Shown piece after piece: positions 9,863 to 20,850 of a DNA stretch of 23,375 bases. Below the pieces are notes generated by a model that did no database searches, had not been told where the DNA came from, and was given only the letters and a program-made list of their open reading frames with translations. The stretch is from the IMG/VR virus record IMGVR_UViG_3300043313_000717, positions 1 through 23,375 of that record, one strand, 5' to 3'. This DNA is from a virus. The position numbers and the translations under genes are program-made. Positions within the stretch are counted from its first letter, which is position 1, and each line of letters opens with the position of its first letter.

Positions 9863-10093
9863 ATGCGCGAACTTCGATGTGGTACGACTATGCATGGCAG
9901 GATGCTCAGCGATCATGAGCTAGAGGTCAAGTGCAAGCGCCGTGCATGCGGGCATAAACCTGGTGTGGTAGTACTACATGTATTCGACATTCGCACAGGT
10001 AACCTTGTTTCAACTAAGAGGTATGCCGACCCACAGAAAGAGCAGGTGAAATATGGTTCAGGCGAACCCGGCCCTACCATACGGTCTGCGTGA
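9863..10093 (+). CDS. Com-like zinc-ribbon protein
   Basis: 76 residues from ATG 9863, chosen over the in-frame ATG at 9851 because GGGAG (9853-9857) lies just upstream. The start MRELRCG, then HELEVKC (C24) and C29-G-H31, is the layout of the phage Mu Com/zinc-ribbon family, a small two-knuckle zinc protein. The first knuckle is degenerate: C6 is followed by H11 rather than a second Cys; H18 or H31 could also contribute. The segment VVVLHVFDIRTGNLV follows as a beta hairpin. Mu Com binds mRNA to permit translation of mom; whether this protein binds RNA is not known. Its last 41 bases overlap the major tail protein gene. Confidence 0.75.
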   Translation: MRELRCGTTMHGRMLSDHELEVKCKRRACGHKPGVVVLHVFDIRTGNLVSTKRYADPQKEQVKYGSGEPGPTIRSA

Positions 10094-10601
10094 TGTGCGG
10101 TTGTATCCACTGGCTGCTGACTGGTCGTTGGGTACTGGGGTCGATCTTCCGGTAGCTCGGGTGTTCACCTTCAGTGATACTGAGGCGTTCACGGAGCTCA
10201 CGGGCGATGACACCACGCAAGCATCACACGGCGCAGGTCCCGTGGTGGAGTGGGAGCTCGAAGCGGGAGGTATCTCGCTTGCCGCCTATCAAGTTATGGC
10301 GGGCGGTGCTATCGTCCGTACGGGCGTCACACCGAACATCAAGGACACGTTCACAAAGCTGACAACGGATTCACGGCCTTACTTCCAGGTAGAGGGTCGA
10401 GCAATCTCCGACAGCGGCGGCGATGTCCACACCATTGTCTATCGGTGCAAGGCCGATAGCAACCTGGAGGGCACGTTCGAAGGAGGCAACTTCTTCCTTA
10501 CCAAGGGCAAGGGTAAGGGGTATGGCGACAACGTTGGTGCTTCGCCGACGTTCAAACTTTACCAGTTCGTGCAGAATGAGACTGGGGTGGCGATTCCATA
10601 A
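10053..10601 (+). CDS. Major tail protein (tail tube subunit)
   Basis: 182 residues from ATG 10053, with AGGTG a few bases upstream inside the overlapping zinc-ribbon gene. It polymerises as hexameric rings to form the tail tube. Support: position between tail terminator and tail assembly chaperones; opening NPALPYGLRDVRLYPL; an even beta-rich pattern (ARVFTFSDTEAF, WELEAGGISLAAYQVMAG, PYFQVEGRAI, VHTIVYRCKA) and the closing FKLYQFVQNETG strand, as in tube proteins of other siphoviruses. The stop overlaps the next ATG (TAATG). A later start around residue 12 is possible but would lose the conserved opening. Confidence 0.85.
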   Translation: MVQANPALPYGLRDVRLYPLAADWSLGTGVDLPVARVFTFSDTEAFTELTGDDTTQASHGAGPVVEWELEAGGISLAAYQVMAGGAIVRTGVTPNIKDTFTKLTTDSRPYFQVEGRAISDSGGDVHTIVYRCKADSNLEGTFEGGNFFLTKGKGKGYGDNVGASPTFKLYQFVQNETGVAIP

Positions 10602-10990
10602 TGGCCGACCTATCCTCCTTCGTCCAGCGTCCCAACGCAAGCACCGTTGTTATTCCAACGTATACCGCGGTGACGGCAGCGGACAAGTTCCTCGCCAGCC
10701 AGAACAGCGGGTACATGCTCCATTACAAGAATGGGGCAACCTTGGCGGGTGCCGTTTACATCAACGAGAAGTTGGCGGCAAACCCTCCGAGTTCACAAGC
10801 TCCAATCCCGCCGCCAGCGGGTGGGCTGAAGTGGTCAGATTTTGTTGTCCACACCGCATTTCCCGCGTCAGTCGAGCGGGTAGTGTTCATCGACAACATC
10901 TCTGCCTACATCGACAACCTAGGGTTTGTGAATCTCCAGCACCTTGGAACGATCACGACCCTGACGGTCTGCATTATGGGACCGCTGTAA
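10601..10990 (+). CDS. Unrecognised tail-module protein
   Basis: 129 residues coupled to the major tail gene by TAATG. The sequence looks all-beta with a Pro-rich loop (about 64-75: SSQAPIPPPAGG) and a C-terminal half rich in Ile, Val and Leu (about 88-129). No transmembrane helix or catalytic motif. Position after the tube gene and before the chaperones suggests a virion or tail decoration protein, but I do not recognise a family. Confidence 0.68.
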   Translation: MADLSSFVQRPNASTVVIPTYTAVTAADKFLASQNSGYMLHYKNGATLAGAVYINEKLAANPPSSQAPIPPPAGGLKWSDFVVHTAFPASVERVVFIDNISAYIDNLGFVNLQHLGTITTLTVCIMGPL

Positions 10991-11035
10991 CATCCTAGTA
11001 GTACCCAATTCGGATCCCCAGGAGGACCAACTGCC

Positions 11036-11560
11036 ATGACCCCACGTAAGCGCACCATACCGACCAGCACTGAAGGCGTCACCTCAGTATCTGCATGGAA
11101 GAAAGAAACTGGCCCGTTGCTCGAGCTCCCCAGTGGCAAGACGGTAAGAGTCATGGAGCATCCCAGCATGCGGATCTTCATGAAAGCCGGCATTATCCCG
11201 AACTCTCTTGTTGGCATTATTCAGAAAGCCATTGACCAGGGCGATCAGCCTGACATGTCTGGCTTTGTTGCTGACGCCTCTCGCGTAGAAGAGATGTTCG
11301 AAATGATGGACAACATTGTGCGTTTCGTTGTTCAGGAGCCGAAGTTCCAACCCCTCCCCTCGAACGATGCTGAGCGGGACGATAGTGTGTTGTACATCGA
11401 TGAGATGGAACAGACTGACAAGATGTTCATCTTCCAGTGGGCCACCGGGGGTACCCGAGACCTGGAGCGATTTCGTAAGCAACACAACCCTGGTATGGAT
11501 CTTGTACCAGGACGCGAAGACGTGGTCGGTAAGACCGTCCGATCTTCTCGCGGTAAGTGA
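11036..11560 (+). CDS. Tail assembly chaperone, short form (gpG-like)
   Basis: 174 residues; ATG 11036 follows GGAGGA (11021-11026). Content fits gpG-like chaperones that coat the tape measure protein during tail assembly: an opening beta segment with LLELPSGKTVRV, then a mostly helical body (about 43-110, with FMKAGIIPNSLVGIIQKAI and VEEMFEMMDNIVRFVV), an EQTDKMFIFQWATGG segment and a polar C-terminus. It lies directly before the tape measure gene and overlaps a second open frame that encodes the gpT-like part. The first eight residues echo those of the gene at 780 (MTPRK), probably by chance. Confidence 0.85.
   Translation: MTPRKRTIPTSTEGVTSVSAWKKETGPLLELPSGKTVRVMEHPSMRIFMKAGIIPNSLVGIIQKAIDQGDQPDMSGFVADASRVEEMFEMMDNIVRFVVQEPKFQPLPSNDAERDDSVLYIDEMEQTDKMFIFQWATGGTRDLERFRKQHNPGMDLVPGREDVVGKTVRSSRGK
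11524..11540 (+). other. Imperfect hairpin at the chaperone frame switch
   Basis: GGTCGGT, loop AAG, ACCGTCC: seven possible stem pairs with one T-T mismatch and a three-base loop. It lies exactly where the useful reading must pass from the gpG-like to the gpT-like frame. The heptamer CGGTAAG inside it (11527-11533) recurs at 11551-11557, just before the short-form stop. It could stimulate frameshifting at a site upstream, but this is inferred from position and pairing only. Confidence 0.4.
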
Positions 11561-11756
11561 CGAGTACCAAGCCTACTGCTTAGATCAGGCAGTGGGTCTT
11601 TTAGGTCGGCGAATCGAGAATGAACTTGAAGCAGTAGAAGGCAGGAACGAAGCCGAGATCAAAATGAAGCGCGAAAGAATCCTTGCCAAGTACATCGACT
11701 TGGGAGAAGGCAAGAAGAGTGGATTCGCAGACCCAGCACTCCTCATCAAGAAGTAA
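11532..11756 (+). CDS. Tail assembly chaperone, frameshift extension (gpT-like)
   Basis: About 74 codons read only as a C-terminal extension of the upstream chaperone; the start given is approximate. The frame has the typical gpT-like opening RPSDLLAVSDEYQAYCLDQA followed by a helix with GRRIENELEAVEGRNEAEIK and a polar end; RPS-x-LL and YxAYCLDxA recur at this point in actinophage G-T fusions. Relative to the gpG-like frame it is +1 (equivalently -2); the -1 frame is closed by TAA at 11530. No convincing independent start with a ribosome site exists (GTG 11592 lacks one and would drop the motif). The fusion would be about 239 residues. No canonical slippery heptamer was found. Confidence 0.72.
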   Translation, partial: RPSDLLAVSDEYQAYCLDQAVGLLGRRIENELEAVEGRNEAEIKMKRERILAKYIDLGEGKKSGFADPALLIKK

Positions 11757-11765
11757 GGGGGCAAC

Positions 11766-14690
11766 ATGACCGCACCCCTGGGGCAGATTCGTGGCCAAAT
11801 CCTCATCGATGCCAAACAGGCCATAGCAGAATACGTCGCACTACGCGCCGCTAACGCTGCTACAATGTCGGCATTGACGGGGTCAAGCCGGGCGTTTATC
11901 GCTTTCGGTATAGCTGCAACTGCTGGGGGTGCGGCGATTGTCGCCCTCTTTGCTAAGGCGATCAGTGCTGCTGCGGACTTCCAGAAGAAGATCGACCTCT
12001 TCGGTGCTGTTACTGATGCCTCTCAGGCTGACATGGAGGCGGTGGCTCAGAAGGCCATGGAGATGGGTCGTACAACGATCTTCTCCGCGGGTCAGATGGC
12101 TGACGCCTTCGTAGAGTTCGGCAAGGCAGGTGTCAATACCAAGGACATCCTTGCTGGTGTGGCTGATTCAGTTGTCGCCCTCGCGAGCGCTGCGGGTATT
12201 GGGCTAACTGACGCATCTGACATCATTATCTCCACGATGCAGACGTTCAAGATCAGCGCCAATGATACCATGAAGATTGCTGACCTTCTGGCCGGTGCTG
12301 CAAACTCGTCCATTGTCGAGGTTCGTGATCTGGGTGTCTCACTGAAGTATGTCGGTGGTATTGCTGCTGCGACGGGCATTCCTCTCAAATCAGTAGTTAC
12401 TGCTCTATCGCTCCTTGGGCAAGCTGGGATTAAGGGATCGACTGCAGGCACATCATTACGCCAGATTTTGGTCTCCCTCAACGCAACTAGCAAAAAGTCT
12501 CAAGATGAACTGAAGAAACTAGGTATCATCACCAAGGATGGTACTAACCTCTTCATCGATCAGGCGGGGCACCTCAAGCCGCTAGACCAGATCTTCCAGA
12601 TTTTGCAGACCCACACCGCAGGGCTGACTGATGCCCAGCGTCTATCGGCATTGAAAATCATTTTCAATAACAGAGCCCTAGCAGCTGCGAACATTCTGCT
12701 GAAGGATGGCGCTAAGGGCTTCTCAGACATGGCGGCTCAGATTGATAAGATCTCTGCTGCTGATGTGGCTGCACGCCGACTTGATAACCTCGCGGGTGAT
12801 GTTACTAAACTGAAGAACACCTTCCAGACCTTTTTGATTCAGGCTGGCGGTCCATTCCAGAATGTGATGCGGGTTATCGTCCAGGGTCTTACTAACCTTA
12901 TTAAGGCATTCGCCAACTTGCCCGAACCAATTCAGACAGCCATTGTTGCTACGCTGGCAATTGTCGGTGCTCTGCTTCTCATTGCTGGTACAGTATCGCT
13001 AGCGGTCGGGTCTGGTATCAGACTTGTCATTCTGTTCACTCGTGTAGCTGCGGCAATGCGGATCTTGATGATCGTCATTCGTGCGGTGGTTATCATTCTG
13101 CGGGTGCTGAGCATCGCTCTTCTGACAAATCCCATTGGTCTTATCGTAACTGCAGTTGCTCTTTTGGTTGTCGGCTTTATTCTGCTATATACACACAGCA
13201 AGCGATTCCGCGACATTATTGCCAGTATAGGTAATGCGCTGAAGACAGCATTCCTTGCAGTGGTTGACTTTGTCAAGGGCATCCCTCAGTTCTTCATTGA
13301 CCTCTGGCATAATGTCCAGGAGATCTGGAACAATATCACCTCAGCAATAACTGGCGCAGTCCAAGCAGCCATTGACTTCATTCTGTCGGTGTGGAGTACA
13401 GTTACCGAGGCAGTTCTTGGTCCGATTCGTGCAGTGGGTGCTGGTGTATCTGCAGCATTCCAGGCAGTGTATGACGCGATTGCTAACGCGATTAACAATG
13501 TCATCGGGTTCATCCAGCGCAACTGGCGCGTACTGATTCTGATTACTGGTCCCTTCGGGATTATGGTCGACATCATTACTGCGCACTGGGCAGCAATCAA
13601 CAACGTCATTCATGTGGCAGTACAGCAGATTGTTAACTTCCTTACCACCATATGGAACGTTCTAGTAGCTACTGCTACGGCTGCGTGGAATGCAATTGTT
13701 TCAGCTGCTACTGCCGCTTGGAACTTCTTGGTGGGAGTTACCACGGTAGCTTGGAATGCCATTAAGGCAGTCTTCGCTCCGGTCATTGCTTTCATCGTTG
13801 CGGTAGTTACTACTGGAGTTAACACAATCCGGGCGATTGTTTCTGCCGTATGGAATGCAGTATCAGCAGTTACCTCAGCTGTTTGGAATGCCATTAGAAA
13901 TGCGGTCGCTGCGGCAGTTAATGGTATCTTAGCTGCGGTTCGACTTATCTCACAGATCGTTGGTATTGTTGCTGGAGCTTTGTCTGCGGCCTTCAACGCA
14001 GTAGTCAGAGGAGTTGCTACAATCCTGGGCTACTTCGGACGGTTCGCTGGGATGGTTCTCGGGGCAATTGGTAACCTAGCAGGTACTTTAGTTGGCCCGG
14101 CGGTATCACTTATAACTGGCTTCTTCAATGCCATTGTTTCTTCGGCGTCGAGAATCTGGGGTTATCTCAGTAATATCGGTAGTACTGTTGCTAGTGCTGT
14201 CGGTGATCTTGGTGGTGCTCTATTCTCTGCCGGTGTTTCAGTTATCACTGGCTTTATCAGTGGTATTGTTTCAAAGGTCGGGGATATTATCGGAACAGTT
14301 AAGGATGCTATTGGTGGTGCGATCAACTTCGCCAAGGGGTTGCTGGGTATTGGTTCACCATCTAGAGTCTTCCATCAGATGGGTCGTTGGACTGTCCAGG
14401 GCTTTGCCAATGGTATCGAGCATGACAAGAGACTGGCGATTAATGCACTTACCGATCTCGACAGTGTGATCAATAGCCACACCAAGGGGCTCAGCATTAT
14501 GGCTTCTCCGTCCTTGGTTAACACTATTGCTGGGGATAAGTTTGGGAGAGGTACTCCGCCAATAGTTATCACGCAGCAGCCGAACCAGAGTTTCAATGTG
14601 ACTATGACCGTCCCAGCCGACAAGATCAAGGATGTCGCTAAGTTGATTGATATTGTCCAGGGTATTCCGCAGGCAGTGAGGGCGAGGTAA
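11766..14690 (+). CDS. Tape measure protein
   Basis: 974 residues; ATG 11766 follows AAGGGGG (11755-11761). It sets tail length and is ejected with the DNA. Residues about 70-340 match the TP901-type tape measure core (FQKKIDLFGAVTDAS, ATRTTIFSAGQMADAF-like, LGQAGIKGSTAGTSLRQIL). Residues about 385-480 hold very hydrophobic helices, usual in these proteins and possibly membrane-penetrating. From residue 521 to about 728 the chain runs in 11-residue units with Trp or a beta-branched residue at position 1. Near residue 862 the common GIGSPSRVFHQMG motif precedes a C-terminal region that would bind the tail tip. At about 0.15 nm per residue the tail would be roughly 145 nm, an estimate from family behaviour. 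The stop overlaps the next start (TAATG). Confidence 0.96.
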   Translation: MTAPLGQIRGQILIDAKQAIAEYVALRAANAATMSALTGSSRAFIAFGIAATAGGAAIVALFAKAISAAADFQKKIDLFGAVTDASQADMEAVAQKAMEMGRTTIFSAGQMADAFVEFGKAGVNTKDILAGVADSVVALASAAGIGLTDASDIIISTMQTFKISANDTMKIADLLAGAANSSIVEVRDLGVSLKYVGGIAAATGIPLKSVVTALSLLGQAGIKGSTAGTSLRQILVSLNATSKKSQDELKKLGIITKDGTNLFIDQAGHLKPLDQIFQILQTHTAGLTDAQRLSALKIIFNNRALAAANILLKDGAKGFSDMAAQIDKISAADVAARRLDNLAGDVTKLKNTFQTFLIQAGGPFQNVMRVIVQGLTNLIKAFANLPEPIQTAIVATLAIVGALLLIAGTVSLAVGSGIRLVILFTRVAAAMRILMIVIRAVVIILRVLSIALLTNPIGLIVTAVALLVVGFILLYTHSKRFRDIIASIGNALKTAFLAVVDFVKGIPQFFIDLWHNVQEIWNNITSAITGAVQAAIDFILSVWSTVTEAVLGPIRAVGAGVSAAFQAVYDAIANAINNVIGFIQRNWRVLILITGPFGIMVDIITAHWAAINNVIHVAVQQIVNFLTTIWNVLVATATAAWNAIVSAATAAWNFLVGVTTVAWNAIKAVFAPVIAFIVAVVTTGVNTIRAIVSAVWNAVSAVTSAVWNAIRNAVAAAVNGILAAVRLISQIVGIVAGALSAAFNAVVRGVATILGYFGRFAGMVLGAIGNLAGTLVGPAVSLITGFFNAIVSSASRIWGYLSNIGSTVASAVGDLGGALFSAGVSVITGFISGIVSKVGDIIGTVKDAIGGAINFAKGLLGIGSPSRVFHQMGRWTVQGFANGIEHDKRLAINALTDLDSVINSHTKGLSIMASPSLVNTIAGDKFGRGTPPIVITQQPNQSFNVTMTVPADKIKDVAKLIDIVQGIPQAVRAR
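13326..13949 (+). repeat. Tandem 11-residue (hendecad) repeats in the tape measure gene
   Basis: Nineteen successive units of 11 residues (residues 521-728), with one unit of 10 (598-607). Position 1 is W, I, F, V or G, position 4 is usually I, V or L, and many units start WNAI, WNAV or WNVL. The repeats are at protein level; the DNA copies have diverged. Hydrophobic 11-residue spacing continues more weakly to about residue 850. Confidence 0.8.
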
Positions 14691-19663: not shown

Positions 19664-20002
19664 ATGCTCAACTACACTGCTGACTGGTGGGGAATGCTCG
19701 CTCTGCTTGTGGCCGTGGTTCTGCCGATTCTGGTGGGACTGGTCACGCGAGTTACGACCCACCCGGGAGTGCAGGCAGTTCTGCTGCTCGCTCTCTCTGC
19801 TATCGCTGGGACGCTCACGCTTGCGCTCCAGGCACATCAAACCAACGATGTGAACTTTAGTTGGCGAGCGGCAGCGCTCAACTCGCTGGTCACGTTCGTC
19901 ATCGCAGTTGCCTCTCACTTCGGGCTTTGGAAGCCAACGACCGTGGCTCGTAAGGCTCAGCTCGTCGGGGCCCCTCGCGCGCAGAAACGGCAATACCAGT
20001 GA
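19664..20002 (+). CDS. Holin candidate (three membrane helices)
   Basis: 112 residues; GAAGGGA (19651-19657) precedes ATG 19664. Three hydrophobic segments are visible at about 9-29, 36-57 and 70-88, with a short periplasmic N-terminus (NYTADWW) and a basic C-terminal tail with many Arg/Lys. This is the size and layout of class I holins, which open the cytoplasmic membrane at lysis time. It directly precedes a peptidase gene with GTGA overlap, as in a holin-endolysin pair. A second, two-helix membrane gene at 21537 might be a partner or the real holin. Confidence 0.82.
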   Translation: MLNYTADWWGMLALLVAVVLPILVGLVTRVTTHPGVQAVLLLALSAIAGTLTLALQAHQTNDVNFSWRAAALNSLVTFVIAVASHFGLWKPTTVARKAQLVGAPRAQKRQYQ

Positions 20003-20850
20003 AAATCACGCTACCTGAGGTTCGCATAGAAGATCGAAGATTGGGTCGGCATATAAATCATGACCCTCGATCGCTAACCTATCGCACTACTCCTGCAGTT
20101 GTCGACCTCAGTGTTCAGTGGAAGCGGCATGTTGACATCTTCGATCAGGGCAACTTGGGTTCTTGTACGGGTAATGCCGAGGCGGGTCTCTTGGCGAGTG
20201 ATCCATTCTTCCCGACAATGCCGAACATCCTCGTCATCAACGAGGCTTTCGCAATCAAGCTTTACTCACTGGCGACGAAGCTCGATCCCTATGGTGGGTC
20301 GTGGGAACCTGATGACACCGGCAGTGATGGGATGTCGGTCAACAAGGCAGCTCAGCAACTGGGCTATATCAATGGCTACGTTTGGGGCACGACTCTCGAT
20401 GAAGCCAAGGGGTTGATCCAGAAGGGGCCGTTTATCGTCGGCACCAACTGGACAACCTACATGGACGACCCCGGGAGTGACGGCATCATTCGTAATCCCG
20501 CGGGTGGTTCAGTCCGAGGAGGTCATGAGTACGTCTGCCGGGAGAGAGATGCATCTCGTGGCCTCTGGTGGTTCGACAATTCATGGGGCCTTGGTTTCGG
20601 TGTGGCTGGACGATTCGCGTACGACGACGCAGGTCTGATGGCTCTGATGGCACAGGGTGGCGATATGACGCAGTCCACACCAAATACCTTGCCCCCTCCG
20701 AAGCCAGAACCAACTACGGATCAAGATCTCATCGACTGGTGGGTGGCAGCAAAGCCATGGGCCACTGGTCACTTCTTCTCCCGTCTCACCAAGGCCGGTA
20801 AGGCATCAGCCGCTTCGGTCACACTCGCACAAAGGAAAGGACTGGCATGA
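19999..20850 (+). CDS. Papain-family (C1) cysteine peptidase, putative lysis enzyme
   Basis: 283 residues from GTG 19999, overlapping the holin stop. The full papain set is visible: Gln50 and Cys56 in DQGNLGSCTGNA, His176 in GGHEYVC, and Asn194 in WFDNSWG. Only about 35 residues precede the domain, so there is no long inhibitory propeptide and no signal peptide. A Pro-rich linker (about 226-240) leads to a short C-terminal region (about 242-283) that may bind the wall. Coupling to a holin suggests it acts as endolysin, cleaving peptide bonds in the wall, although C1 enzymes normally cut proteins; a role in processing or in cutting surface proteins is an alternative. No amidase, muramidase or NlpC/P60 lysin lies in the window. 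The stop overlaps the next ATG (ATGA). Confidence 0.88.
   Translation: MKITLPEVRIEDRRLGRHINHDPRSLTYRTTPAVVDLSVQWKRHVDIFDQGNLGSCTGNAEAGLLASDPFFPTMPNILVINEAFAIKLYSLATKLDPYGGSWEPDDTGSDGMSVNKAAQQLGYINGYVWGTTLDEAKGLIQKGPFIVGTNWTTYMDDPGSDGIIRNPAGGSVRGGHEYVCRERDASRGLWWFDNSWGLGFGVAGRFAYDDAGLMALMAQGGDMTQSTPNTLPPPKPEPTTDQDLIDWWVAAKPWATGHFFSRLTKAGKASAASVTLAQRKGLA

Follow-up and report, generated by a model that had tools for sequence, protein, structure and literature searches.

The tail assembly chaperone locus of the window (meaning here the whole analysed stretch of 23,375 nucleotides from IMG/VR virus record IMGVR_UViG_3300043313_000717) very probably represents one gene with two readings, in which, judging from comparative sequence evidence, a +1 slip of the P-site tRNA-Phe from UUU to UUC would give both a gpG-like protein and a longer gpG-T fusion. 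As the initial annotation had claimed, the gpT-like segment lies in the +1/-2 frame relative to the gpG-like gene, and this relation of the downstream half is kept in every relative examined, complete isolate genomes included; the extension is a conserved protein, and the frame changes at one and the same site, TTT_CGT at positions 11471-11476, even though no slippery site had been thought visible.

The locus, its relatives and the data set

The gpG-like ORF matches phrog_4336 (tail assembly chaperone, E 8.5e-12) and phrog_6280 (E 6e-14), scores above the cut-off for PF24117 (DUF7391) and sits between the major tail protein and tape measure genes, all of which agrees with the G/GT-type tail chaperone pair proposed initially; the predicted chaperone role of the gpG-like gene rests on these profiles and the gene order. 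The features referred to throughout are as follows:

10053..10601, + strand: major tail protein, upstream neighbour (phrog_4971, E 1.2e-55)
11020..11025, + strand: AGGAGG, Shine-Dalgarno (SD) sequence of the gpG-like gene, from the sequence
11036..11560, + strand: gpG-like predicted tail assembly chaperone, 0 frame, 174 aa, ATG start (PHROG, Pfam, gene order)
11447..11452, + strand: GGGGGT, which in the window represents the anti-SD-complementary GGRGGT of the family; 18 nt upstream of the slip codon
11471..11474, + strand: putative slip site UUU_C (TTT_C in 70/71 clusters, one alignment column; frame-window argument)
11474..11476, + strand: 0-frame A-site codon CGU (CGT in 58/70 clusters, CGC in 8/70)
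11472..11756, + strand: gpT-like extension, +1 frame (F146 V S N T T L V W ... LLIKK; stop 11754-11756)
11766..14690, + strand: tape measure protein, downstream neighbour (phrog_1272, E 3.4e-100; PF10145)

The gpT-like open frame spans 11307-11753 in the +1/-2 frame relative to the gpG-like ORF and encodes, at 11532-11591, the peptide quoted in the initial annotation, RPSDLLAVSDEYQAYCLDQA, about 60 nt 5' of which TTT_CGT is found. A canonical -1 frameshift was rejected, as there is neither an X_XXY_YYZ heptamer nor an open -1 frame (TAA at 11530-11532), and it had rightly been remarked that the -1 frame is closed at 11530 and that the mechanism, lacking a canonical -1 heptamer, is unlike that of lambda. 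A PDB sequence search with the 0-frame chaperone found no relative, and the predicted 0-frame fold (13-sequence model, pLDDT 71) had no PDB match at E<=0.001.

Some other genes of the window may be mentioned in passing: a small gene in the interval between the major tail protein and gpG (10601-10990) has no PHROG or Pfam match; a Prok-JAB (JAMM-type) domain protein (PF14464, E 1.4e-10) is encoded near the terminase (1466-1873); and the predicted protein of 19999-20850, for which there was no Pfam match, shows papain-like C1-type motifs by eye (NLGSCTGNA, GGHEY, DNSWG) and might be a peptidase.

Relatives of both the gpG-like and the gpT-like halves were found by tblastn in Microbacterium phages (Triscuit, Huwbert and the Krampus group), Arthrobacter phage Wollypog, Curtobacterium phage Shrew, Gordonia phages Lambo and Ranch and Mycobacterium phages Nova, Hawkeye and Predator, and the extension lies in the +1/-2 frame in 12/12 of the phage loci opened. 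Two IMG/VR scans added 83 loci; in the second scan, the pattern searched for came from the YVDEVDxxDK region, which precedes the slip site, and so was not selective for the slip site itself. The resulting 96 homologous loci fall into 71 clusters at 70% aa identity; as the clusters share descent, it is the identity-thinned sets and the frame-window argument (see below) that carry weight. Among the prophage scans, one (A3) gave two metagenome-assembled genome (MAG) contigs with homologous tail genes (L154 and L155), which could be either prophages or mis-binned phage contigs, their source MAGs being labelled Armatimonadota and Acidobacteria; the results of the prophage genome scans A1 and A2 were too divergent for use, and a single-protein genome scan with a slightly consensus-edited window gpG as the query found nothing.

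The frame change at TTT_C

At a single alignment column (F146 of the window, 11471-11473), TTT followed by C is present in 70 of the 71 clusters, while the frequency of TTT is 24%, 16% and 5% at the remaining conserved Phe columns and 17.8% in the rest of these genes. The pattern persists upon thinning to below 60% (61/62), 50% (44/45), 45% (36/37) and 40% (18/19) identity, and, as an independent check, TTT_CGT was also present in all 7 contigs found later and in both MAG contigs. The following A-site codon is CGT in 58 of the 70 clusters, CGC in 8, CCT in 2 and CTG and CTT in one each. The UUU_CGN motif is in frame and lies where the two ORFs overlap, the second of them being in the +1 frame; TTT and CGT are both constrained beyond codon usage (z 12.8 for TTT and 11.1 for CGT, values that are descriptive because the clusters are related by descent). 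The sole exception to TTT_C (L079/L080) has TAT_CTT_CAA near the end of its gpG ORF, which points to a prfB-like slip one codon farther 3', since on CTT_C tRNA-Leu could re-pair in the +1 direction through a first-position G:U pair, as in prfB.

That the frame is changed at this very place follows from the positions of stop codons (the frame-window argument): in 8 clusters, a +1-frame stop three codons before TTT means that ribosomes cannot enter the +1 frame any earlier, and in one locus (L052), where the +1-frame stop lies nine codons before TTT, a 0-frame stop four codons after it makes gpG end almost at the junction, so that the upstream stops of the former and the narrow overlap of the latter, taken together, place the shift at TTT_C. 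Base conservation at codon positions 1/2/3 (0-frame count) is 0.96/1.10/0.55 bits before TTTC and 0.47/0.77/0.83 bits after it, and this move from positions 1 and 2 to positions 2 and 3 indicates that the protein under selection switches frame at TTTC. Fusion sequences align across the junction among the homologues, in which W154 of the fusion, an R-P-S stretch and a C-terminal FADP motif are conserved, all of them encoded in the +1 frame only.

In the mechanism proposed, most ribosomes would read through to 11560 and produce the 174-aa gpG-like protein, while in a minority the P-site tRNA-Phe paired with UUU (11471-11473), the A-site codon CGU being still unoccupied, would move one base forward and re-pair with UUC, which is fully cognate for its GAA anticodon and leaves no mismatch. 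Reading would then continue with GUA AGC AAC and so on, to give a 239-aa gpG-T fusion ending at 11753, whose expected junction peptide in the window is ...DLER-FVSNTTLVWILYQDAK, with Phe coming from UUU and the residues after it from the +1 frame. The re-pairing on UUU_C without a mismatch, the lack of any -2 pairing and a G-run that is not conserved argue for the +1 direction. By analogy with lambda, gpG would coat the tape measure protein and gpG-T would recruit the major tail protein, and, because of such lambda-like roles of the two products, the efficiency of the shift would be expected to set the gpG:gpG-T ratio.

Possible stimulators and competing explanations

What might promote such a slip was sought on both sides of it. 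With CGT accounting for 66 of the 319 Arg codons in the window, CGU is no rare codon, so a pause at a "hungry codon" or through a scarce tRNA is unsupported, and the CGT preference may reflect the need for Val/Ala in the +1 frame. Conserved RNA structure 3' of the slip site was absent (z averaging about -0.1 to -0.2 over 69 sequences, against shuffles), which led to the rejection of a downstream structure as a stimulator, despite the window's own overlap RNA (11480-11560) folding better than shuffles (z -2.15), a property that is not conserved in the relatives. A prfB-like SD stimulation at 3 nt was likewise rejected, since no complementarity above the control was found next to the slip codon.

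Farther upstream, the slip is preceded, at a distance of seven and eight codons, by a Gly-Gly pair that is encoded by GGR GGT far more often than expected from codon usage (GGA z 8.1, GGT z 7.6), with complementarity to the 16S rRNA 3' end peaking at -24..-19 of the slip codon and exceeding that of within-gene synonymous shuffles (z about -11), all of these z-scores being descriptive for clusters so related. The preference persists in the identity-thinned sets (below 40-60%), and, as the element precedes the shift, overlapping coding does not explain the constraint; it is not universal, though, as some relatives without the Gly-Gly pair (e.g., Hawkeye and Predator) have no GGRGGT at that place. 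SD-like elements are known to act at 3 nt for +1 and at 9-14 nt for -1 shifts (PMC5009743), against the 18 nt seen here, and GGRGGU can only tentatively be put forward as a putative +1 stimulator, 18 nt 5' of UUU_C, of a previously undescribed geometry. If true, the anti-SD contact would form and come apart again two to four codons ahead of the slip codon, instead of at 3 nt.

The same SD-like GGRGGT could be taken as a sign that the downstream ORF has an internal start of its own and is translated separately, with no frameshift at all, an explanation that also fits the two separate genes annotated at the tail chaperone locus in the Triscuit, Nova and Predator records and the non-AUG starts found in the +1 frame of many loci. 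It is nonetheless improbable, and was rejected on a start-codon survey of 70 clusters: only 8/70 of them have an open start in the +1 frame at 2-17 nt 5' of the slip, the window offers a single candidate from the slip to RPS, a TTG at +31, +1-frame conservation sets in right at the slip, ahead of any common start, and the conservation of TTT_C would be given no role.

A -2 shift like that of Mu, at which the initial annotation had hinted, could be placed on the G-run of 11447-11451 (GGG GGT) or at another upstream position; it has a documented precedent in Mu itself (PMC3498833, PMC5009743) and might seem favored by the tblastn alignments of the extension, which begin just past GGGGG; the window sequence alone would be compatible with it too, given that its +1 frame is open from 11307. 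The relatives, however, make it very unlikely, as GGGGG is found at that place in only 20/70 clusters and a +1-frame stop intervenes between the element and TTT in 10/70, on which grounds a -2 shift at GGGGG was rejected, and the conservation of TTT at the slip column would be left unexplained. Nor would a -2 shift of tRNA-Phe at TTT itself fare any better, the bases at -2..0 being CCT, AGT, CGT, etc., and never TTT. The data thus point to +1 at UUU_CGU.

A sequencing error or a decayed gene would be conceivable for single-contig data from a virus fragment, yet its probability is negligible, since the frame relation and the motif are shared by homologous loci, complete isolate genomes among them, and the same relation in the homologues also rules out the error restoring a -1 relation that the initial annotation had allowed for. 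Equally negligible is a transcriptional slippage producing mixed mRNAs, for, although the site is a T-run, it consists of three T's only, the preceding base being T in 1/70 clusters and the next one always C, and known transcriptional slippage sites are much longer homopolymers.

Relation to known recoding systems and implications

Tail chaperone genes use -1, -2 or +1 frameshifting depending on the phage, and among the tetranucleotides known to be prone to +1 shifts in bacteria is UUU_Y (PMC5009743). The "unusual" mechanism anticipated initially is uncommon in tail genes indeed, but is not without precedents. Lambda gpG/gpGT (PMC5009743) is likewise a two-product tail chaperone gene between the major tail protein and the tape measure, but its tandem -1 slippage employs a canonical heptamer, instead of a +1 slip on UUU_C without one, whereas phage Mu gpGT shares both the frame pair and the gene function and shifts by -2, UUU_C and the non-conserved G-run favoring +1 here. 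The closest precedent is that of the HF1-group haloarchaeal myoviruses, for the tail chaperone genes of which TTT-CGC was proposed as a +1 site (PMC7230728): gene position, frame relation and the UUU_CGN motif all match, yet those are archaeal viruses, represented by six aligned genomes with the motif very near the first stop, as opposed to bacterial phages, 70/71 clusters and a motif that is mostly 12-38 codons before the stop.

Outside of tail genes, influenza A PA-X uses a +1 slip on UUU_C in UCC_UUU_CGU, proven by peptide sequencing (PMC3498833), and UUU_CGN is a proposed +1 site in amalgaviruses (PMC5052127); UUU_C, the CGN A-site preference and the +1 direction are common to these systems and the present one, although the former involve eukaryotic ribosomes and other genes, and no conserved UCC precedes the slip codon here. 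The role of the A-site codon at UUU_CGN has been called uncertain (PMC3498833). The prfB CUU_UGA site (PMC5009743) likewise combines a +1 P-site slip with an upstream anti-SD-complementary element (and its CUU is what L079 could use, as CUU_C), but its SD spacing is 3 nt and a stop occupies the A site, compared to 18 nt and a sense codon. FseA of rhizobial ICEs (PMC5009743, PMC10359603) shifts +1 at UUU with an RBS-like UGGGGG nearby, also in a bacterial mobile element, in a gene unrelated to the tail chaperone and with a closer SD-like spacing.

As for actinophages specifically, the PRFect paper (PMC10885494) contains 350 SEA-PHAGES cases classed as forward positive and says that a general motif for forward shifts was not known; the forward-shift tail chaperones concerned are from actinophages as well, and UUU falls under its generic "three" motif, while a family-wide UUU_C(GU) is not named in the text consulted. 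A literature search of partial coverage did not find UUU_C(GU) named for these actinophages either, so the UUU_C +1 trick, albeit known elsewhere, seems undescribed for this large phage group.

The site proposed here offers an exact and testable position for the frameshift in a large group of phages whose locus several records give as two unlinked genes and one, that of Krampus, calls "weird" (the annotator's remark there being "slipp is weird"). It also indicates that the UUU_CGN +1 motif of eukaryotic viruses, proposed in haloarchaeal viruses, is kept in bacterial phages too. These phages also provide a natural series for finding out by measurement what a bacterial +1 shift needs, from UUU_CGU, UUU_CGC, UUU_CCU and UUU_CUN to CUU_C, with and without GGRGGU.
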